Assembly (NCBI GenBank): GCA_009773355.1
Contig: WRPG01000040.1
Coordinates: 1-47,355, forward strand
Direction: 5' to 3'
Source: Limisphaerales bacterium
Lineage (GTDB): Bacteria > Verrucomicrobiota > Verrucomicrobiia > Limisphaerales > SXTU01
DNA: 47,355 bases
Part shown: positions 4,362 to 46,465 of the stretch, piece after piece
Layout: the number at the start of each line of letters is the position of its first letter
Position numbering within the stretch: the first letter of the stretch is position 1
Notes under the pieces: generated by a model
Databases searched by the model: none
Seen by the model: only the letters and a program-made list of their open reading frames with translations
What the model was told of the DNA's origin: nothing
Made by a program: the position numbers and the translations under genes

Positions 4362-4694
4362 TTAGGCCGCGACGGTGAGCGATTCCAACTTCGCGAGGAT
4401 GGTCTTCTTGCCGGCGGCTCCGACGATTTGGGCCACGGGCTTGCCGCCTACGAAGAAGAGCATCGTGGGCAGGCCTTGGATGCCGAACTGCTGCGCGAGG
4501 TCGGGCTGCTCGTCGGTGTTGACCTTGGCGACCTTCAGCTTGCCGGTCTGCTCGGTGGCGATTTCATCGAGCACGGGCGCGAGCATCCGGCAGGGGCCGC
4601 ACCACGGCGCCCAGAAGTCCACGAGCACGGGTGATTGCGATTTGAGCACTTCGGCCTCAAAGTTCGCGGCGGTGATTTCAATGGTCGGTTTCAT
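4362..4694 (-). CDS. trxA: thioredoxin
   Basis: 110 residues, the normal size of thioredoxin 1. The active site WCGPC is at 31-35 after VLVDFWAP, with the cis-proline loop GLPTMLFF near residue 75. It reduces protein disulfides in the cytoplasm with thioredoxin reductase. There is no signal peptide. The start lies only 23 bp beyond the stop of the RND/outer-membrane fusion on the same strand, so it could be read through from the efflux operon, an unusual placement for trxA. Confidence 0.95.
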   Translation of the reverse strand: MKPTIEITAANFEAEVLKSQSPVLVDFWAPWCGPCRMLAPVLDEIATEQTGKLKVAKVNTDEQPDLAQQFGIQGLPTMLFFVGGKPVAQIVGAAGKKTILAKLESLTVAA

Positions 4695-4717: not shown

Positions 4718-7700
4718 TCACTTGCTGACGGAGGAAGGTTGCGCGGTTGCCTGTGAAAGCAACGCCGTGCTGTCCCACCCGCCGCCGAGGGACTTGATGA
4801 GCAGCACGCTGGCGAGGAGCCGCTGGCCGGTGAGCTGCGCGGCGGCGCGCTCGACTTGCAACGTGGCACGGTTGGCATCCACGACTTCGAGGTAGCTGAC
4901 GATGCCGCCCTTGTAGCGCTCGTTCGCCAGTTCAGCAGCGCGGCGGGCGCTCGCGACGGCACGGGCCTGCGCCTCGGCCTGCTTCGCGAGATGATGCAGG
5001 CCGGACAGGCTGGTCTCGACCTCGCCGAACGCGACGAGGATTTGCTGGCGGTAGCGCGCGACGGCCTCGTAGTAGGCAGCTCGGGAGCGCTGGAGGTTCG
5101 CCTGATTCCGTCCGCCGGCGAAGAGCGGGATGGTCAGGCTCGGGCCGAAGCTCCACACGCGGCTGTCGAGGCTGAACAGGTTTTCCAGCTCGCCGCTGAC
5201 GAAGCCGCCGGAGCCGGTGAGCCGCAGCACGGGGAAGAATGCGGACTTCGCCACGCCGATGCGCGCATTGGCGGACGCGAGCTGGCGCTCGGCCTCAGCC
5301 ACGTCGGGGCGACGCTCGAGCAAGTCGGCGGGCAGGCCGGCGGGAATGGCGGGCGGCAGCGGCTGCCAGGCGGTGTGCGCGCTGGCGAGCGAAGGCAGCT
5401 TGAACGCGGACGCCGGTTCTCCGAGCAGCACAGCGAGGGCGTTTTCGAGTCCGGCACGTTGCCGGGCGAGCGCGGAAAGTTCCGCCTCCGCCGTGGCCAG
5501 CTCGGTCTGCGCGCGCGCGATGTCCAGTTCGGTGGCCACGCCGCCCTCGAAGCGGCTGCGCACGAGCTGCAACTGCTCCTTCCGCAAGCCGATGGTGCTG
5601 ACGACGGTCGCCAGCTCGGCGTCGAGCGCGCGGAGGGTGAAGTAGTTCTGCGCAACGTCCGCCTGCACGACGAGCTGGACGTTGTGCAACGCGGCGAGTG
5701 AAGCCTGTGCGTCTGAGCGCGCGGCCTCGAAGCCGCGCTTGAGCCGGCCCCAGAGGTCCACTTCGTAGCTCAAGTCGAGCGGCACGCGAATTGTGTTCGC
5801 CGTGAGCGCACCGAAGTTGGGCTGCTGGTTCGGTGAGTAGCGCTCGCGACGGAAGCCGGTGTTGGATTCGAGCGTCGGAGCAAAGTCGCCTTTGCGCAGG
5901 CGCGCGGTGGCGCGGGCCTGCTCGACGCGCGCGACGGCGGCCTTCAACTGCTGGTTCGCGGCGGTGGCGCGTTGCTCAAGGTCGTTGAGTGTGGCGTCGC
6001 CGAAGACTTCCCACCACGCGCCCTTCGCGGCGTGGTCGAGCGGCTGGCCTTCCTTCCACGCGCCGAGGTCGTTGGTGGATTTGAAGGCGGGCGGGACTTC
6101 GGTCTTGGGCCGCTGATAGTCCGGGCCGATGGTGGTGCAGCCGGTGGCAACAACCGCGAGCAGCGCGATGGCCGCGATGCCCGCCGTGGCTCCGGCTGAA
6201 CCGAGCGCGGGGCCGCTGCTCTGCGGCGTCGGCGCGGGCTTCTTGTTCCAGCCGAGTTTCATCAGCACGACGTAGAAGACGGGCGTGAGGAAGAGGCCGA
6301 ACAGCGTCACGCCAATCATGCCGCTGAACACGGCGACACCCATCGCGCGGCGCATCTCCGCTCCCGCGCCGGTGGAGATGACGAGCGGAAACACACCCGC
6401 GACGAACGCGATGCTGGTCATCAGAATCGGGCGCAGGCGCAGGCGGCAGGCTTCGATGGCGGCGTCCACCGGTGACGCGCCTTCGTCCTGCCGATGCTTG
6501 GCGAACTCGACGATGAGGATGGCGTTCTTGCACGCGAGGCCGATGAGCACGATGAGGCCGATTTGCGTGAAGACATTGTTGTCGCTGCCGACGTAGGCCA
6601 CGCCCGCGATGGCGAAGAGCAGGCAGAGCGGCACGACGAGGATGATGGCGAGCGGCAGGCGGAAGCTCTCGTATTGCGCCGCGAGCACGAGGAACACGAG
6701 CAGGATGCAGAGCGGGAAGATGTAGACCGCCGTGTTGCCCGCGAGGATGCGCTGGTAAGTGAGGTCAGTCCACTCGAAGGCGAAGCCCTTGGGCAAAGCC
6801 TTCCCCGCGAGTTCCGCCATGATTGTCTCAGACTGACCGGAACTGAAGCCGGGCGCGGGACCGCCGTTGATTTCCGCCGCCGGGTAGCCGTTGTAACGCA
6901 TCGCGCGGTCGGGGCCGTAGCTTTCCCGGACCTTCACCAGCGCGCCGAGCGGGACCATCTGGCCCTGCGCGTTGCGGGTCTTGAGGCGCGTGATGTCCTC
7001 GGGCGAGTCGCGGAACTTCGAGTCCGCCTGCGCGATGACCTGGTAGGTGCGGCCAAAGAGGTTGAAGTCGTTCACGTAGAGCGAGCCGAGGTAAATCTGC
7101 ATCGTCTCGAAGAGATTTTGCAGCGGCACGCCCTGCGACTTCGCCTTCACGCGGTCCACGTCCGCGTCGAGCTGCGGGACGTTCACGGTGAACGTGGAGA
7201 ACAGGCCCGCGAGTCCCGGCGTCTGGTAGCCCTGACCGACGAGGCCCATCGTGTTTTGGTAGAGCGCGTCGTAGCCGAGACCGGCGCGGTCCTCGACGTA
7301 GAGCTTGAAGCCGCCGATGGTGCCAAGGCCGTTGACGGGCGGCGGCGGCACGGCGAGCACGAAGGCTTCCGTGATGCTGGAGAATTCCTGGTTTAACGCC
7401 TGCGCGATGGCCGGACCGCTCAACTCCGGCGTCTTGCGCTGGTCGAAGTCTTTCAAGCAGAAGAAGACGATGCCCGCATTTGGCGCGACGCTGAAGCCGC
7501 TGATGCTCAGGCCGGGGAAGGCGACGGCGTCCTGCATGCATGGATGCTTGAGACCAATCTCGGACATCTTGCGGATGACGGCCTCGGTGCGGTCGAGCGA
7601 CGCGCCATCCGGCAGTTGCGCGAACGCGACGAGGTATTGCTTGTCCTGACCAGGCACGAAGCCGGTCGGGACTTTCGTGAAGCTCCAGCCGGTGAGATAG

Positions 7701-9370
7701 ACGAGGCCGCCGTAGAGGATGAGCGCGATGAAACTCTTGCGCACGATGCCGCCGACGCTGGCCGCATACTTGTTGCTCGACCAGTTGAAGAAGCGGTTGA
7801 ACGGCCGGAAGAACCAGCCGAACAGCGCGTCCATGATGCGCGAGGGCAGGTCTTTCTTCGCGTCGTGACCGCGCAGCAGCACGGCGCACAACGCAGGCGA
7901 AAGCGTGAGCGAGTTGAACGCGCTGATGACCGTCGAGATGGCGATGGTGATGGCGAACTGCTTGTAGAACTGGCCGGTCAGCCCGCTGATGAACGCCGTC
8001 GGGATGAACACCGCGCAGAGCACCATCGCGATGGCGATGATGGGACCGGTAACTTCATCCATCGCCTTGCGCGTAGCGTCCACGGGCGAGAGGCCGAGGG
8101 CAATGTTGCGCTCGACGTTTTCGACCACGACAATGGCGTCGTCCACCACGATGCCGATGGCCAGCACGAGGCCGAAGAGCGTCAGCATGTTGATGCTGAA
8201 ACCCAGCGCCAGCATGATGGCGAAGGTTCCCACCAGCGACACCGGCACGGCGGCGAGCGGGATGATGGACGCGCGCCAGGTCTGGAGGAACAGGATGACC
8301 ACCACGACCACCAGCAGGATGGCTTCGGCGAGCGTCACCACGACGGCCTTGATGGAGCTGCGCACGAACGTGGTCGGGTCATAGACTACGGAGTAATCAA
8401 TGCCCTCCGGGAAGTTCTTCTTTAGCTCGTCCATCGCGCCGCGCACGTCCTCGGAGAGCTGGAGCGCGTTCGCGCCGGGCGACTGAAAGATGGGGATGGC
8501 AACGGCGGTCTTGTTGTTGAGCAGGGAACGGAGCGAGTAGCCGGACGCGCCCAGTTCGATGCGGGCCAAGTCTTTGAGCAGCGTTTTTTCGCCGTTCGCG
8601 CCGGTCTTCACGATGACGTTGCCGAACTCGGCAGGGTCAAGGAGGCGGCCCTTGGTGTTGATTTGTAGCTCCAGATTCACCGGCGAACCGACCGGCGGCT
8701 GGCCGACCGCACCGGCGGCGACCTGCACGTTCTGCTCGCGGATGGCGTTGACCACGTCGCTCGCGGTGAGGTTGCGCGCGGCGATTTTATCGGGGTCGAG
8801 CCACACGCGCATGGCGTAATCACCGGAGCCGAAGACCTGCACGTTGCCGGCGCCGGGGATGCGCGCGAGCACGTCCTTCACCTGAAGCACGGCGTAGTTG
8901 CGGATATAGACCTCGTCGTAACGGTCATTCGGCGAGAAGAGGTGGACGACCATCGTTAGGTCGGGCGACTGCTTCGTGGTGGTGACACCAATGCGGCGCG
9001 CTTCCTCGGGCAGCTTCGGCAGCGCCTGCGCGACGCGGTTCTGCACGAGCACCTGCGCCTTGTCCACGTCGGTGCCGAGCTTGAAGGTGACGGTGAGCGT
9101 CATCACGCCATCGGCGGTGGCCTGCGAGAACATGTAGAGCGAGTTCTCGACGCCGTTGATGGCCTGCTCCAGCGGCGCGGCGACGGTCTCGGCAATGGTC
9201 TTCGGGTTCGCGCCGGGATAGGTCGCCATCACGACGACCGTGGGCGGGACGACCTCGGGATATTCGCTGATGGGCAGGCGGAACATCGCGAGCAGCCCGA
9301 CGATGAACGTCACGATGGACAGCACGGCGGCGAAAATCGGGCGGCGGATGAAGAAGTGGGCGAATTTCAT
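4718..9370 (-). CDS. fused RND (HAE1) multidrug efflux pump and NodT-type outer-membrane factor
   Basis: A single open frame of 1550 residues. Residues 1 to about 1045 are a complete AcrB/MexF-type proton-driven permease, starting MKFAHFFIRRPIFAAVLSI. The TM4 proton-relay aspartates are D410-D411 (IGIVVDDAIVVVENVE), and the TM10 lysine is in GLACKNAILIVEFA. Without a stop the frame continues through basic KLGWNKKPAP and a hydrophobic stretch to a lipobox, VVATGC (Cys 1078). A full TolC/NodT outer-membrane factor (residues 1078-1550) follows, with the usual TTIGPDYQRP start and two coiled-coil repeats. RND proteins end in the cytoplasm, so the middle helix could work as an internal lipoprotein signal. 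An in-frame ATG at 6262 (residue 1037) could also start a free outer-membrane factor. Confidence 0.9.
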   Translation of the reverse strand: MKFAHFFIRRPIFAAVLSIVTFIVGLLAMFRLPISEYPEVVPPTVVVMATYPGANPKTIAETVAAPLEQAINGVENSLYMFSQATADGVMTLTVTFKLGTDVDKAQVLVQNRVAQALPKLPEEARRIGVTTTKQSPDLTMVVHLFSPNDRYDEVYIRNYAVLQVKDVLARIPGAGNVQVFGSGDYAMRVWLDPDKIAARNLTASDVVNAIREQNVQVAAGAVGQPPVGSPVNLELQINTKGRLLDPAEFGNVIVKTGANGEKTLLKDLARIELGASGYSLRSLLNNKTAVAIPIFQSPGANALQLSEDVRGAMDELKKNFPEGIDYSVVYDPTTFVRSSIKAVVVTLAEAILLVVVVVILFLQTWRASIIPLAAVPVSLVGTFAIMLALGFSINMLTLFGLVLAIGIVVDDAIVVVENVERNIALGLSPVDATRKAMDEVTGPIIAIAMVLCAVFIPTAFISGLTGQFYKQFAITIAISTVISAFNSLTLSPALCAVLLRGHDAKKDLPSRIMDALFGWFFRPFNRFFNWSSNKYAASVGGIVRKSFIALILYGGLVYLTGWSFTKVPTGFVPGQDKQYLVAFAQLPDGASLDRTEAVIRKMSEIGLKHPCMQDAVAFPGLSISGFSVAPNAGIVFFCLKDFDQRKTPELSGPAIAQALNQEFSSITEAFVLAVPPPPVNGLGTIGGFKLYVEDRAGLGYDALYQNTMGLVGQGYQTPGLAGLFSTFTVNVPQLDADVDRVKAKSQGVPLQNLFETMQIYLGSLYVNDFNLFGRTYQVIAQADSKFRDSPEDITRLKTRNAQGQMVPLGALVKVRESYGPDRAMRYNGYPAAEINGGPAPGFSSGQSETIMAELAGKALPKGFAFEWTDLTYQRILAGNTAVYIFPLCILLVFLVLAAQYESFRLPLAIILVVPLCLLFAIAGVAYVGSDNNVFTQIGLIVLIGLACKNAILIVEFAKHRQDEGASPVDAAIEACRLRLRPILMTSIAFVAGVFPLVISTGAGAEMRRAMGVAVFSGMIGVTLFGLFLTPVFYVVLMKLGWNKKPAPTPQSSGPALGSAGATAGIAAIALLAVVATGCTTIGPDYQRPKTEVPPAFKSTNDLGAWKEGQPLDHAAKGAWWEVFGDATLNDLEQRATAANQQLKAAVARVEQARATARLRKGDFAPTLESNTGFRRERYSPNQQPNFGALTANTIRVPLDLSYEVDLWGRLKRGFEAARSDAQASLAALHNVQLVVQADVAQNYFTLRALDAELATVVSTIGLRKEQLQLVRSRFEGGVATELDIARAQTELATAEAELSALARQRAGLENALAVLLGEPASAFKLPSLASAHTAWQPLPPAIPAGLPADLLERRPDVAEAERQLASANARIGVAKSAFFPVLRLTGSGGFVSGELENLFSLDSRVWSFGPSLTIPLFAGGRNQANLQRSRAAYYEAVARYRQQILVAFGEVETSLSGLHHLAKQAEAQARAVASARRAAELANERYKGGIVSYLEVVDANRATLQVERAAAQLTGQRLLASVLLIKSLGGGWDSTALLSQATAQPSSVSK

Positions 9371-9460: not shown

Positions 9461-10657
9461 TTAGCGTTGTGCGACTTTCGCTTCGCTCGCGGCAGCAGCA
9501 GCGGTCGCTTCCTTCGGCGACACGGGCATTCCCGGGCGCACCTTCGCGAAGAGAATGTCGAGGACGACCTTCTCGCCCGGCTGCAATCCATCGCGGATGA
9601 CGCGCTTGCCACCGATGGCCGCGCCGAGCTTCACGGGACGGTAGGCGACGGTGTTCGTCGAGGTGAGCGTGAGCACGAACTTCTGCGCCTGGTCGGTGCC
9701 GATGGCGCGCTCGTCCACGAGCAAGGCCGGATACTTCGCGCTGCCCGGCACGCGGATGCGCGCGAAGAGGCCGGGCACGATGCGTCCGTCGGGATTCGGA
9801 AACACCGCACGCAGCAGGATGCTGCCGCTCTGCGGGTCGAGCTTGTTGTCGAACGACTCGATGTGGCCCTGGTGCGGGAAGCCCTGTTCATCGGCGAGCT
9901 GCAACTCGACGGGCACCTGGCCGTTGCCGTTGCTGGTGATTTTCTTCGCGCGGGCCAGGGCGTTGAACTTGAGCAGCGAGTTCTCGTCCACGTCCGCATA
10001 CACATGCACGGGGTCCACGGAGACGATGGTCGTGAGCAGCGTCGCCGCGCCCGCGAGGCCGCTGACGTAGTTGCCGACGTTGACCAGCTCGCGGCTCACG
10101 CGACCGCTGATGGGCGCGCGGACCTGGCAGTATTCAAGGTCGAGCTTCACGGCGTCGCAAGCGGCTTGCGCGGCGAGGAGCGCGGCTTTTGCCTCGTTGT
10201 GGCGGGCGTGGCGTGCTTCGGCTTCCTCGGTGGAGATGGCCTTGTTCGCCAGCAACTGCACGGTGCGGTCAGCCTCACGCTTCATGTTGTCCACGCGCAC
10301 TTGCGCCTGCTGCAACTCGGCCTGGCGGCGGTTCAGCTCGGCCTGGAAAGAGCGCGAGTCTATCGCGAAGAGCAGGTCGCCCTTCTTCACAAGCTGGCCG
10401 GACTGGATGCGCGCCTCCTGAAGGTGGCCGGACACGCGCGGGCGCACCTCGACGTATTCCACCGGCGCGGTGCGGCCCGTGAACTCGTCCCACTCGACCA
10501 GCTCCCGCTGCTCGACGGCGGCAACGGCAATCTGCGTGGGTGGCATCTGCGGCGGCGGACCGGCAGCAGGCTTGGGCTTGCAGCCGGCGGCAGCGAGCGC
10601 AAGCGTGCCGGCGAAGACAGCGGCGAGCGCGGGGTGGGTGATTGCGGCGAGCGACAT
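9461..10657 (-). CDS. RND efflux periplasmic adaptor (membrane fusion lipoprotein)
   Basis: 398 residues. The signal peptide ends in lipobox LAAAGC (Cys near 26), so it is a lipid-anchored adaptor. The lipoyl half-motifs VRPRVSGHLQEARIQSG and YCQVRAPISGRVSRELVNVG flank a coiled-coil hairpin (about residues 100-155). Beta-barrel and membrane-proximal domains follow. It bridges the RND pump and the outer-membrane factor, as AcrA/MexE does. It ends 91 bp before the RND start with family A repeat copy 2 between, and is encoded in the same operon under the TetR regulator. Confidence 0.93.
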   Translation of the reverse strand: MSLAAITHPALAAVFAGTLALAAAGCKPKPAAGPPPQMPPTQIAVAAVEQRELVEWDEFTGRTAPVEYVEVRPRVSGHLQEARIQSGQLVKKGDLLFAIDSRSFQAELNRRQAELQQAQVRVDNMKREADRTVQLLANKAISTEEAEARHARHNEAKAALLAAQAACDAVKLDLEYCQVRAPISGRVSRELVNVGNYVSGLAGAATLLTTIVSVDPVHVYADVDENSLLKFNALARAKKITSNGNGQVPVELQLADEQGFPHQGHIESFDNKLDPQSGSILLRAVFPNPDGRIVPGLFARIRVPGSAKYPALLVDERAIGTDQAQKFVLTLTSTNTVAYRPVKLGAAIGGKRVIRDGLQPGEKVVLDILFAKVRPGMPVSPKEATAAAAASEAKVAQR

Positions 10658-11102: not shown

Positions 11103-11717
11103 TTAAGCGGCCACCGCTTCCACCGACTTCGCGCCGAGCAGGTCCAGGATGCCGCGTTCCATCTCGCGGAGGACTTCCGCGTCGTTGCGGATGCGCGCCT
11201 GCGTCATCAGCCCCTCGCTGAAGGCATAGATGGTGCGCGCCTTGGCCGCCGCATCGGGCGCACGGATGACTCCCTCCGCGTGCGCGTCGCGAATCGTCGT
11301 CTCCAGATACTTCCGGGACTGGTCCATGATGTCCTCAACCTTCTGGCGCAGGCCAGCCTCCTGAGTGGAGACTTCCGTGCCCAGCGTGCAGAGCGGGCAC
11401 CCCAGCACATGGCCGAATTCACGCTGCAAACCAAGCTGTTCCTCATACTCAAACTCGCAGAACCGGTGAATGCGCTCCAGCGGCGGCAACGATGGCGAGA
11501 AGACCCGGTCGAGTTTGGGCCGGAATTCTTCCCACGCCGACTCGATGGCCTCCTCGGCCAGCGCGGCCTTTGAGTCAAAAAAATAGTAGAAGCTGCCTTT
11601 CTTCACGCCGGCCCGCTCGCAAATCTGGTCAATGGTTGTGCTGCCATACGAGCCGGTCCAAATCAGTTCGGTCACGGCTTTCATCAACTTCTCTTTGGCA
11701 TCACTGACGCGGCCCAT
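11103..11717 (-). CDS. TetR/AcrR-family transcriptional repressor
   Basis: 204 residues. The N-terminal helix-turn-helix is typical: STTIDQICERAGVKKGSFYY followed by FFDSKAALAEEAI. The ligand domain (about 55-204) is TetR-like and contains two cysteines in LGCPLCTLGTE, which could sense thiol-reactive or oxidising compounds (inference). Its position upstream of an RND efflux operon on the same strand, with operator copies on both sides, makes it the probable local repressor of itself and the pump. Confidence 0.92.
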   Translation of the reverse strand: MGRVSDAKEKLMKAVTELIWTGSYGSTTIDQICERAGVKKGSFYYFFDSKAALAEEAIESAWEEFRPKLDRVFSPSLPPLERIHRFCEFEYEEQLGLQREFGHVLGCPLCTLGTEVSTQEAGLRQKVEDIMDQSRKYLETTIRDAHAEGVIRAPDAAAKARTIYAFSEGLMTQARIRNDAEVLREMERGILDLLGAKSVEAVAA

Positions 11718-36595: not shown

Positions 36596-39262
36596 ATGAA
36601 CCATCCGCCTCAACCCAACACCTGCCCGCAGTGCAGCGCCGTCCTGCCGGCGGACGCGCCGCAAGGCCTCTGTCCTGCGTGCCTGCTGGCTGCGGTCGCG
36701 CTTCCCACCGAAGCCGGCACTGCCGCGCCTGCCAAGGCTCCGGCACCCACGCGTGAGCAAGTCGCCACCGCCTTTCCGCAGCTTGAAATCCTCGAACTCA
36801 TCGGCGCGGGCGGCATGGGCTACGTCTTCAAGGCCCGCCAGCCCAAGCTCGACCGCCTCGTCGCGCTCAAGCTCCTGCCGCAGCACCTCGGCGCGGACGC
36901 CGCCTTCGCCGGGCGCTTCGAGCGCGAGGGCCGCGTCCTCGCCCGCCTCAGCCACCCGAACATCGTCACCGTCCACGACTTCGGCTTCGCCCGTGCCGGC
37001 GATTGGCAATCGCCGTTCCCATCGCCACGCCCGCCCACAGACGGCGACTACAAGTCGCCGGCACTTCCGCTGTCGCCCGACGCCCAACCTGAAACTCCAA
37101 ACTCTCAACCCGGAACAGCGAAGCCAGGTTTCTACTACCTCCTCATGGAGTTCGTGGACGGCGTGAACCTCCGCCAGGCCATGCGCGCCGGCCGCTTCAC
37201 GCCCGTGCAGGCGCTCGAAGTCGTCCCGAAGATTTGCGAGGCCCTCCAGTTCGCCCACGAGCAGGGCATCCTCCACCGCGACATCAAGCCCGAGAACATC
37301 CTCCTCGACGCGAAGGGCCGCGTGAAGCTCGTGGACTTCGGCATCGCCAAGCTCGTTGATGACGGCAGGGCCGAGCTGCCGCCCGGCCTCGACGCGGAGG
37401 CCGCGCAGCAACGCGGCCCTGCCACTCTCACCTCCGCCACCGCCGCGCTGGGCACGCCCAGCTACATGGCCCCCGAGCAGCGCGACCACCCCGCCGAAGT
37501 GGATCATCGTGCCGACATCTACAGCCTCGGCGTCGTCTTCTACGAGATGCTCACCGGCGAGCTGCCCGTCGGCAAATTCGCCCCGCCCTCCGCCAAATCC
37601 GCCAGCGACCCGCGCGTGGATGAAGTCGTTCTCCGCGCGTTGGAGCAGCAGCGCGAACGCCGCCAGCAAAGTGCCGGGGAGGTGAAGACGCAGGTGGAAA
37701 CCATCGCCGCTTCGTCCTCATCCGCCGGCAGCGGACGTGCGAAGGCTCCAATGGCTAGTCAGGTGCGTTACGCAGCGGGATTGGCTATCGCGACAGCCTG
37801 GCCAGTTGGCTTGTTTTTGGCATCCATGGCAGCGCTCAAATCAAGGCCCCAGGAAACGATGCTCATGGTAGGTGTGAACGGAGCCAGCGTGGTCGGGGCG
37901 TTGGGAGTCATCGGGTTCCTTCTCAGGCGGAAAGACCCGGAACCGCCCAAGGCAGCGCGTTGGGGTGCGCTGCTGGCCGTGGTCGGCCTAATTCTTGTGC
38001 CGGCCATTTTCTTCGGCACACGACCTTGGCTCAATGTCGCCGGCCGAAAGGCCTACGAATCAATCAGTGCACAGTTTCTTGAGGCCAGCCGCCAGCAAAC
38101 AGCCGCTGGGTTGGCCCGGGCCAGACTAGAGCGTTGGCAGTCCGCGACCCACGAACTTTCGACCCAAGCCGAAGTGAGCCGGCGTATTGCGGATTTGAGT
38201 GCGACTGAGGTGCGCCACCGAGACACCGCCAACAAGCACCTCCAGACACTGCGCTCGCTCCCCGACCAACCCTCAACGGAAATCAAGTGGCTCATGAGTC
38301 TCGCGGGCGGACTCGCGCTCGCCGGTCTAGTTTGTGGACTTGTAGGCCAGTTCGCAGTCCAGCGCCGTGAGCGGAAAGAGGGCGCTTCAGAAGCGGCCTT
38401 TGCGGTATTGGCGCTGCCAACTGTTGCGGGACTGTTCGCACTCTTGTCATGGGCCATGAATCTCCGCGTGCCTGCGTTCACTGGCGACGAGGTGCGCTAC
38501 TGGTTCGCCGGCTTGTCTTTGGCCGGGGGCGTCATCGCTACTGGGGTCGGTTACTGGGTTTGGCTGCGACTCACGCATAGCTGGGACTGGGGGCGTGCGG
38601 CGCTGGTGCTGGTCCTGACGGGAGGCGGGGTTGCCCTGCTGCTGACGCAACTGCCCAACGGCTTGAAACGGCTGGTTCCCGCACCCCGACTGCTTCTCGA
38701 ACAGGTCCAAATTACCCAAGGCATACTGCGTTGCAACGCGACGCCGCTCGGCCTCCCAGACGGTTGGGCCGTCGCTTTGCGAGGGATGGGGATCGGCGGG
38801 GGAAGGGTCAGCAACCATGTGCTGTTCAATCAGGCGTTTGACCGGTGGATGGCCATCCAACAACCGTTCTCGTTCGGTCGTATCACCGAGTTCGACGAGA
38901 TGAACGCGGTAGAGCGCGGTCCGTTGATTTTGACGGCCTCAAGCACATGGCCACTTGCAGCGAGGCCGGACGCGGAGCCACAGGTGTTGCTGGTCCTGAC
39001 GAATAAGGCGGGTGATGGACTGCGGATTGAAGCCCAACTCGTCCCTGTGCCCCGCAGTCTGCTTAGACCGGCAGAGCAGACCAACCGCACGCGAACAAGC
39101 TTGGATGCCCTGCGCGCTCGCGTGCAATCGGCACAGGACACGTTGGCGCAGTATTCCAGAAGCTACGGCACTAATGACTATCGCGTTCATACGCAGGCAC
39201 GCTTCGTAAGAGACTTGGAAAGCATGCTGGCGCGGAAGGAGGCTGAGTCGTCCGGCAAATGA
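36596..39262 (+). CDS. membrane Ser/Thr protein kinase with N-terminal zinc ribbon and a repeat-derived insert
   Basis: 888 residues, with purine-rich GAGGAGG just before ATG 36596. An N-terminal CPQC ... CPAC zinc ribbon precedes the kinase domain (about 60-365). The P-loop is IGAGGMGYVFKA, VALKLL holds the ATP lysine, HRD is at 227-229, DFG at 247-249, and YMAPEQR closes the activation loop. Residues 133-157 are encoded by palindromic repeat G copy 2 and are absent from the sister kinase. Several membrane helices follow (about 390-700), and an extracytoplasmic tail ends the protein. The ECF sigma gene overlaps by 4 bp, suggesting a kinase-sigma pair. Confidence 0.92.
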   Translation: MNHPPQPNTCPQCSAVLPADAPQGLCPACLLAAVALPTEAGTAAPAKAPAPTREQVATAFPQLEILELIGAGGMGYVFKARQPKLDRLVALKLLPQHLGADAAFAGRFEREGRVLARLSHPNIVTVHDFGFARAGDWQSPFPSPRPPTDGDYKSPALPLSPDAQPETPNSQPGTAKPGFYYLLMEFVDGVNLRQAMRAGRFTPVQALEVVPKICEALQFAHEQGILHRDIKPENILLDAKGRVKLVDFGIAKLVDDGRAELPPGLDAEAAQQRGPATLTSATAALGTPSYMAPEQRDHPAEVDHRADIYSLGVVFYEMLTGELPVGKFAPPSAKSASDPRVDEVVLRALEQQRERRQQSAGEVKTQVETIAASSSSAGSGRAKAPMASQVRYAAGLAIATAWPVGLFLASMAALKSRPQETMLMVGVNGASVVGALGVIGFLLRRKDPEPPKAARWGALLAVVGLILVPAIFFGTRPWLNVAGRKAYESISAQFLEASRQQTAAGLARARLERWQSATHELSTQAEVSRRIADLSATEVRHRDTANKHLQTLRSLPDQPSTEIKWLMSLAGGLALAGLVCGLVGQFAVQRRERKEGASEAAFAVLALPTVAGLFALLSWAMNLRVPAFTGDEVRYWFAGLSLAGGVIATGVGYWVWLRLTHSWDWGRAALVLVLTGGGVALLLTQLPNGLKRLVPAPRLLLEQVQITQGILRCNATPLGLPDGWAVALRGMGIGGGRVSNHVLFNQAFDRWMAIQQPFSFGRITEFDEMNAVERGPLILTASSTWPLAARPDAEPQVLLVLTNKAGDGLRIEAQLVPVPRSLLRPAEQTNRTRTSLDALRARVQSAQDTLAQYSRSYGTNDYRVHTQARFVRDLESMLARKEAESSGK
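36993..37064. repeat. paired palindromic repeat, family G copy 2, inside the kinase coding sequence
   Basis: Arms 36993-37015 and 37042-37064. The right arm is the exact reverse complement of the left arm of copy 1 (25723-25745). It is read through in frame as residues 133-157 of the kinase (RAGDWQSPF ... TDGDYKSPAL). The sister kinase runs straight from TRAG to AQPETGFYF at this point. Confidence 0.92.
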
Positions 39263-40002
39263 CAGCGTCACGCGACGAGGCGATTTCCACTGGCTCCTTC
39301 CACACCACACAGTGGACGCGCGTGCTGGCCTCGCGCGGGGATTCGCCGGAGTCGCAGGCGGCGCTGGGGGATTTGTGCGGGGCTTACTACGGGGCCGTGT
39401 TCGCCTTCATCCGCCGTTCGGGTCGCGAGGGCGACGCGGCGCGCGAGCTGACGCAGGAGTTCTTCGCCCGGCTGCTGGCGCGACAGGGGCTCGACACCGT
39501 GGTGCCGGGACGCGGGCGGTTTCGCTCGTTCCTGCTCGGCGCGGTGAAGCATTTCCTCGCGGACCTGCACGACCGCGCGCGCGCCACCAAGCGCGGCTCC
39601 GGCTCCGTCCCGCTGTCACTCGACGCGGAGACGGACACCTCGCCCGGCCTCGAAGTCCCCGACGCCACCGCGCCAGACCCGGAGCGCGAGTTCGACCGCA
39701 AGTGGGCGCTCACCGTCCTCGACCGCGCGCTGGCCGCGCTCGCCCGCGAGCAGGCGGAGGCCGGACACACCACACACTTCGCTACGCTCAAGCCCTGGCT
39801 CACGGGCGACACCGGCACCGTCTCGCAAGCCGACGCCGCCCGCGCGCTGGCGATGAACGAAGGCGCGGTGAAGGTCGCCGTCCACCGCCTGCGCCGGCGT
39901 TTCCGCGAGCTGGTGAAGGCGGAAATCGCGCAGACCTTGTCAGACCCCGCACAGGTGAAGGATGAGCTGGCCTGCCTGCAAGCCGCGCTGGCAGGAGCGT
40001 GA
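39259..40002 (+). CDS. ECF-type RNA polymerase sigma factor, kinase-linked (first copy)
   Basis: 247 residues, starting in the kinase stop codon (ATGA, 39259-39262). Region 2 is readable as LCGAYYGAVFAFIRRSGREG and ARELTQEFFARLL. Region 4 contains VSQADAARALAMNEGAVKVAVHRLRRRFRELV, a standard -35 recognition helix-turn-helix. It is longer than common ECFs (about 190) and close to the enlarged ECF groups found with Ser/Thr kinases in Planctomycetes and Verrucomicrobia. No anti-sigma gene is near, so phosphorylation by the coupled kinase is the obvious control (inference). Confidence 0.9.
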   Translation: MTASRDEAISTGSFHTTQWTRVLASRGDSPESQAALGDLCGAYYGAVFAFIRRSGREGDAARELTQEFFARLLARQGLDTVVPGRGRFRSFLLGAVKHFLADLHDRARATKRGSGSVPLSLDAETDTSPGLEVPDATAPDPEREFDRKWALTVLDRALAALAREQAEAGHTTHFATLKPWLTGDTGTVSQADAARALAMNEGAVKVAVHRLRRRFRELVKAEIAQTLSDPAQVKDELACLQAALAGA

Positions 40003-40243: not shown

Positions 40244-41002
40244 ATGCCGGTGAGCTTGCCGGACACCCAACACACCGAGGCCGTCCCGCCGCCGCTCTTC
40301 GTGACCACCCGCTGGTCCGTCGTGCTCGCGGCGCAGGAGAAGTCGTCGCCTGAGTCGGCGGCGGCGCTGGAGACGTTGTGCCGCGCCTACTGGTATCCGC
40401 TCTATGCCTACGTGCGCGGCTCCGGCCACTCGCCGCACGACGCGCAGGACCTCACGCAGGAGTTCTTCGCGAGGCTGCTGGCGAAGGATTACCTGCAAGC
40501 CGCCGACCGGGAGAAGGGCCGCTTCCGCACCTTCCTCCGCGTCTGCCTCAAGCGCTTCCTCGCGAACGAATGGGACCGCCAGCGCGCCGCCAAGCGCGGT
40601 GGCGGCGAACGCCCGACCTCGCTCGACGTCGCCCTCGCCGAGCAGCGCTACGCCACCGAGCTGACCACCGGCGTCGCGCCCGACCGCCTCTACGAACGCC
40701 AGTGGGCGATGGCCCTGCTCGAACAGGCGATGGCCCGCCTGCGCGCCGAATACACGGCGGCTGGAAAGGCCAGTGAGTTTGACCAGCTCAAGTCCGCGCT
40801 CACCGCCGAGCGCGGCGCGATTCCCTACGCGGAACTGGCCGCCGCGTTGAACACCACCGAAGGCGCGGCCCGCGTCGCCGTCCACCGCCTGCGCAAGCGC
40901 TACCGCGAACTCTTCCGCGCCACCGTGGCGGACACCGTCTCCGAGCCGGACGAGGTGGACGACGAGGTGCGCCACATCGCCACCGTGCTGGGCGGGGACT
41001 GA
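40244..41002 (+). CDS. ECF-type RNA polymerase sigma factor, kinase-linked (second copy)
   Basis: 252 residues, homologous along its length to the sigma factor at 39259. Shared blocks are TTRWSVVLA (TTQWTRVLA in the first), LTQEFFARLLA, KGRFRTFL and TEGAARVAVHRLRKRYRELFR. The first 20 residues are not conserved, and a later start (GTG 40301) is possible. It is followed on the same strand by the second kinase after a 219-bp gap. The order is sigma then kinase here and kinase then sigma in the first pair. Confidence 0.9.
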   Translation: MPVSLPDTQHTEAVPPPLFVTTRWSVVLAAQEKSSPESAAALETLCRAYWYPLYAYVRGSGHSPHDAQDLTQEFFARLLAKDYLQAADREKGRFRTFLRVCLKRFLANEWDRQRAAKRGGGERPTSLDVALAEQRYATELTTGVAPDRLYERQWAMALLEQAMARLRAEYTAAGKASEFDQLKSALTAERGAIPYAELAAALNTTEGAARVAVHRLRKRYRELFRATVADTVSEPDEVDDEVRHIATVLGGD

Positions 41003-41165: not shown

Positions 41166-41185
41166 GAAAATATTTTCCCGTGGCG

Positions 41186-41210
41186 TGTAACAACCTCGTG
41201 GCCCGTCTTA
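41186..41210 (+). promoter_or_regulatory. bipartite motif upstream of the second kinase
   Basis: TGTAACAACC-N11-CTTA, identical in both blocks and in spacing to 40216-40240. It ends 11 bp before ATG 41222, which also argues for that start over the upstream in-frame GTG at 41180. Confidence 0.42.
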
Positions 41211-41221
41211 ATCAGCAGGCA

Positions 41222-46465
<5,244 letters not shown>

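Follow-up and report, generated by a model that had tools for sequence, protein, structure and literature searches.

A natural fusion of an RND permease and an outer-membrane channel in Verrucomicrobiota, probably processed by signal peptidases at an internal export signal

Assembled efflux pumps of the MexAB-OprM/AcrAB-TolC kind consist of a trimer of the permease, a trimer of the channel and six adaptors. How can a single gene supply both the inner-membrane pump and the outer-membrane channel of such a machine? This question is raised by an open reading frame in the DNA of a Limisphaerales bacterium (the window, meaning the whole stretch of 47,355 nucleotides that was analysed), which runs on the minus strand from 9370 to 4718 through 1550 codons without an internal stop. 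The preliminary description, made from the letters alone, had read here an unbroken frame from an AcrB-like permease into a NodT/TolC-like protein, and this was borne out, both halves of the 1550-residue product scoring above curated cut-offs. The features of the locus are the following:

4718..9370, minus strand: RND permease-OMF (outer-membrane factor) fusion gene, 1550 aa, ATG start, Pfam ACR_tran and OEP; fusion kept in relatives
6263..9370, minus strand: HAE-1 (AcrB/OqxB-type) RND permease part, aa 1-1036 (NF000282, TIGR00915)
6260..6262, minus strand: in-frame ATG (Met1037), alternative start, part of the end of TM12
6191..6259, minus strand: linker (signal n-region), predicted cytoplasmic, aa 1038-1060, KLGWNKKPAPTPQSSGPALGSAG, net charge +3
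6149..6190, minus strand: hydrophobic segment (signal h-region), aa 1061-1074, ATAGIAAIALLAVV
6137..6148, minus strand: lipobox A-T-G-C, aa 1075-1078; the aligned sites of relatives are also of a cleavable type
4721..6139, minus strand: predicted mature OMF (NodT/OprM family), aa 1078-1550 (TIGR01845; OprM 1wp1/4y1k)
9461..10657, minus strand: periplasmic adaptor (MFP), 398 aa, HlyD_D23, HlyD_3 and Biotin_lipoyl_2; upstream gene, same apparent operon
11103..11717, minus strand: TetR-type regulator (TetR_N, TetR_C_13)

With permease and OMF fused and the MFP adaptor separate upstream, two structural genes encode the three pump components. The adaptor has an N-terminal lipobox of its own (LAAAGC), and the position of the TetR-type regulator makes it likely that it controls the operon. 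A gap of 23 bp separates the fusion from a downstream thioredoxin gene (4362-4694, also minus strand), and co-transcription is possible. Elsewhere, the window holds a fragment of an IS110-type transposase close to the contig end (250-867, DEDD_Tnp_IS110 domain only) and a 1761-aa protein (41180-46465) that has a Ser/Thr kinase domain at its N-terminus and whose long C-terminal part gives weak Ig-like and carboxypeptidase-regulatory-like matches. This protein is preceded by a sigma-70-region-2 gene (40244-41002), an ORF that resembles the latter (39259-40002) and a further kinase (36596-39262). No tRNA or Rfam matches were found within the window.

The permease half is of the HAE-1 type. It matches NCBIfam NF000282 over residues 4-1037 with 1460 bits (cut-off 1250) and TIGR00915 with 1173 bits (cut-off 940), Pfam ACR_tran spans residues 4-1036 of the fusion, and the closest solved chains (8yr0, 7wlv, 8zxs) are OqxB/AcrB-type proteins. 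The proton-relay motifs of HAE-1 permeases are present in the translation, VVDDAIVVVENVER in TM4 and ACKNAILIVEF (GLACKNAILIVEF) in TM10, with relay residues whose counterparts we take to be D407, D408 and K940 of AcrB. The HME-type profile TIGR00914 reaches only 318 bits, its cut-off being 701. The channel half (residues 1070-1531) is a complete OMF of the NodT/OprM family, with two OEP repeats in Pfam and a score of 418 bits against TIGR01845 (outer_NodT, cut-off 210) over profile positions 2-460 of 460. Its closest solved structures are of the OprM/OprJ type, OprM (1wp1/4y1k) being matched at E 2e-65, and since the alignment from C1078 starts at residue 3 of mature OprM, C1078 is the counterpart of OprM Cys1. 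In OprM-type channels, lipidated N-termini are located in the inner leaflet of the outer membrane, lipidation being optional among OMFs generally (PMC13082787).

Between the two halves, the join indeed holds the basic stretch, the hydrophobic helix and the lipobox cysteine at residue 1078 that had been noted at the outset. Mean hydropathy reaches 2.43 in the best 15-residue window for the hydrophobic segment, and the lipobox follows the basic n-region and hydrophobic h-region as in lipoproteins (KK...ATAGIAAIALLAVVATGC). A single CDS thus combines ACR_tran and OEP with an internal export signal. The signal is not at the N-terminus of the primary product, where substrates of signal peptidase II (SPase II) carry it; the lipobox cysteine is residue 1078 of 1550, far within the chain and beyond the N-terminal limit of standard lipoprotein rules, which counts against processing by this enzyme.

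We nonetheless consider it likely that the product is a Sec-inserted efflux-pump polyprotein, cut by SPase II here and by signal peptidase I (SPase I) in most relatives. Permease and channel would be translated as a single chain, the permease would insert with both termini in the cytoplasm, and the basic linker and hydrophobic segment that follow helix 12 would act as an internal Sec signal (N-in/C-out), carrying the channel part into the periplasm. Cys1078 would be lipidated and SPase II would then cut before it, at the predicted site between G1077 and C1078, releasing for the outer membrane a channel that is an ordinary OprM-like lipoprotein; SPase I would make the equivalent cut at A-x-A in most relatives. 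The permease would probably keep the signal segment as a 13th helix. Every round of translation would in this way yield one pump and one channel subunit, in agreement with the 3:3 ratio of the assembled pump, and the adaptor, required in double number, would remain a separate gene; given two trimers and six adaptors, fusing permease and channel without the adaptor fits the ratio needed. Both LspA (SPase II) and LepB (SPase I) are encoded in the genome. From these sequence features we infer the topology, cleavage, lipidation and stoichiometry, as well as the pump function of the fusion.

Could the fusion itself be an artefact? An assembly or sequencing error might have joined two ordinary genes by removing the stop codon or frameshift that separated them, the source genome being a fragmented draft of 162 contigs and unfused relatives being known. 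Single-contig genomes (L143, L179, L181), complete Bacteroidota plasmids and independent assemblies at 66-95% identity all carry the same fusion, however, which leaves such an error a negligible probability. The homologue search suggested in the preliminary description turned up 50 non-redundant same-order loci with the fusion, confirmed at the DNA level (38 in clade A, that of the window, and 12 in clade B, at ~50% identity), and a further 11 (group C), with 37-42% identity over the C-terminal permease segment, in a different class of the phylum. Among them, a 94-95% identical relative, present in two collections (L009, L089), has the same fusion, and L143, of the same order, carries it on a single 4.73-Mb contig. 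Two-gene relatives occur near fused members of clade A (L014, L015, L148) and outside it (L045 and homologues from Burkholderia and Pseudomonas). Close relatives do not, therefore, always keep two separate genes, the pattern that had been named as speaking against a fusion; fused relatives are many, though some are unfused. Judged by these related sequences, the fusion is genuine and assembly error is refuted.

A quick permease tree places unfused proteobacterial and verrucomicrobial proteins between clades A and B, and its well-supported branches force at least eight changes between the fused and unfused labels; the separation of the two clades and these forced changes imply that the fusion arose at least twice. 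Within clade A, the same quick tree shows apparent later splits or repeated fusions. Loci L175-L185, from another class of the same phylum, are HAE-1/OMF fusions with lipoboxes and short linkers after helix 12, several of them on single multi-Mb contigs. In L147 (G126:C284), the permease is 83% identical to that of the window over the C-terminal segment, and its ORF continues through a signal-peptide-like helix (...LLLLAVVIMGAHAAG) and stops after 86 residues; no OMF was found downstream of it on the 7.2-kb stretch, and L147 is possibly a fusion that lost its channel. Two candidates were set aside: L090/G004 (permease 92% identical, ORF of 1060 aa), taken for a close unfused relative, is uninformative because its contig stops at the junction, and a Sphingomonas plasmid match spanning the whole query in one piece consists of two annotated genes and is not a fusion.

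What has evolution preserved at the junction? All 73 fused junctions examined, from four groups, contain a signal-peptidase motif, which in the verrucomicrobial groups precedes the first conserved motif of the OMF at a nearly constant distance. In clade A, 35 of the 38 junctions have an SPase I site of the A-x-A type, cut before G, which aligns with the window's lipobox and directly precedes a conserved (V/I)GP(D/N)Y motif. The -1 column of these 35 is Ala in 32 and otherwise Ser or Gly, -3 is A, T, L, V or S, -2 is variable and +1 mostly Gly. The remaining three, those of L102, of L089 (the window's sister) and of the window itself, carry a lipobox, as do all 12 junctions of clade B ([STGN]GC) and all 11 of group C (xGC). 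Of the 38 clade A junctions, 29 have a strict A-x-A or lipobox, where 1000 shuffles give 14.7 on average and 23 at most, sequences inside one clade not being independent of each other; the clade B shuffles reach the observed motif count, as the Cys stays in the shuffle. The linker is positively charged in all 50 same-order fusions.

In unfused relatives, an ordinary N-terminal signal peptide, of one type or the other, occupies this position; the internal segment is thus derived from the channel's original signal peptide. A gene fusion carries the old signal peptide along by default; its presence alone is thus a weak argument, and the case rests on the conserved cut-site columns. Selection appears to have kept the segment cleavable while leaving the type of peptidase free to change: since most clade A relatives have an SPase I site, cleavability is conserved and lipidation optional. 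Of the internal lipoprotein signal originally proposed, the cleavable export signal is supported by the 73 junctions, and the lipobox is not the general rule, given the SPase I sites that prevail in clade A.

RND-OMF fusions are already annotated in databases for Bacteroidota. Plasmids of this phylum encode CusA/CzcA permeases of ~1440-1470 aa, each annotated as a single CDS, for example WP_338794304.1 of Bernardetia, WP_013931245.1 of Runella slithyformis and WP_013768944.1 of Haliscomenobacter hydrossis. Pfam finds ACR_tran and OEP on the Bernardetia protein, and the best 30 matching records have 96-100% query coverage, nearly all within one annotated CDS. On a plasmid of Hymenobacter sp. 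BRD128 (L210, 1501-5903), CzcA and TolC are two overlapping CDSs, one fused CDS in its relatives; this split is either a natural frameshift or fission or a sequencing error. At all 12 Bacteroidota junctions read, the internal signal ends in Ala or Ser followed by Gln, with the cut between them. In Bacteroidetes, SPase I cleavage exposes a Gln (the Q-rule; PMC5837995), so these internal sites obey the Bacteroidota rule for real signal-peptidase substrates. The +1 residue is Gln in the Bacteroidota fusions and mostly Gly at the verrucomicrobial SPase I sites.

The absence of a stop codon means that each ribosome completing the permease must proceed into the channel. For the linker that connects helix 12 to the hydrophobic segment, pN/pS is 0.37 (Fisher p 4e-5), which shows that the linker is translated, though loosely constrained, and the signal-peptide segment shows little codon constraint (0.66, not significant); both values are limited to four near pairs, the all-pairs figure being unreliable because the ungapped comparison misaligns diverged pairs. 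These observations bear on a different source for the channel, namely separate initiation inside the permease gene, for example at the ATG at 6262, which would give it a normal N-terminal signal peptide. The in-frame Met1037 occurs in all 38 clade A fusions, and starts without a Shine-Dalgarno sequence are common here. However, Met1037 is the conserved end of permease helix 12, also present in unfused permeases, no clade B fusion has an ATG there, L144 (clade B) offers not a single in-frame start codon in its linker, the linker shows coding constraint and, with no stop before the channel, upstream ribosomes would still produce the polyprotein. Independent translation from this ATG, offered in the preliminary description as a second possibility, thus emerges weakened, and we regard it as very improbable as the main source of the channel. 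The ribosome binding site reported missing is indeed lacking, in that no Shine-Dalgarno match was found at 6262, but this is uninformative and was dropped as an argument, since the permease's own start and most permease starts lack one too.

The chain might instead stay uncut, with helix 13 as a membrane tether and the channel working while covalently linked to the permease. Cleavage of the fusion is our deduction, and since permease and channel are parts of a single complex in tripartite pumps, a covalent link is conceivable. Yet residue 1078 is the equivalent of the OprM N-terminus, which is at the outer membrane in lipidated homologues (PMC13082787); were it held at the inner membrane, a few dozen residues would have to span the periplasm, an argument from known structures. 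Conserved -1/-3 or G-C columns and the swapping of SPase I and II would, moreover, be purposeless without cutting. An uncut fusion therefore seems unlikely to us, if less so than an internal start.

If the polyprotein is cut as proposed, one gene would supply an inner-membrane pump and an outer-membrane channel in a fixed ratio, and signal peptidase would serve as the maturation protease of a bacterial polyprotein. SPase II would process an internal site preceded by twelve transmembrane helices, a position that standard lipoprotein rules do not allow, lipoprotein and secretome predictions based on the N-terminus would miss fused channels, and counts of outer-membrane factors as separate genes in Verrucomicrobiota and Bacteroidota would be too low. 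On balance, we lean towards regarding signal-peptidase-processed pump-channel polyproteins as a recurrent convergent device of these two phyla, which would join exactly the 1:1 subunits but not the adaptor, of which twice as many are required, with SPase I and II interchangeable, a permease left with a 13th helix and, here, SPase II cutting inside a polytopic membrane protein. In the literature searched, which included few subscription journals, we found no description of a natural RND-OMF fusion or of an internal lipobox, nor of the processing of the Bacteroidota fusions. The latter share with the window a single CDS with the permease followed by the OMF, an internal signal and a separate adjacent adaptor gene; they differ in joining a heavy-metal (HME) permease to a TolC-type OMF, where the window has HAE-1 and NodT, and in having an SPase I site with Gln at +1 and no lipobox. 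HAE-1 pumps of the MexAB-OprM or OqxAB type share the families of the permease and lipoprotein OMF and the MFP-RND-OMF gene order, but have separate genes for what is one chain in the window. In the Bradyrhizobium FbcH cytochrome b/c1 polyprotein, a polytopic membrane protein and an exported protein are separated at an internal signal peptide, as proposed for the fusion; FbcH, however, belongs to a respiratory complex, is cut by SPase I, has no lipobox and its product remains at the inner membrane.
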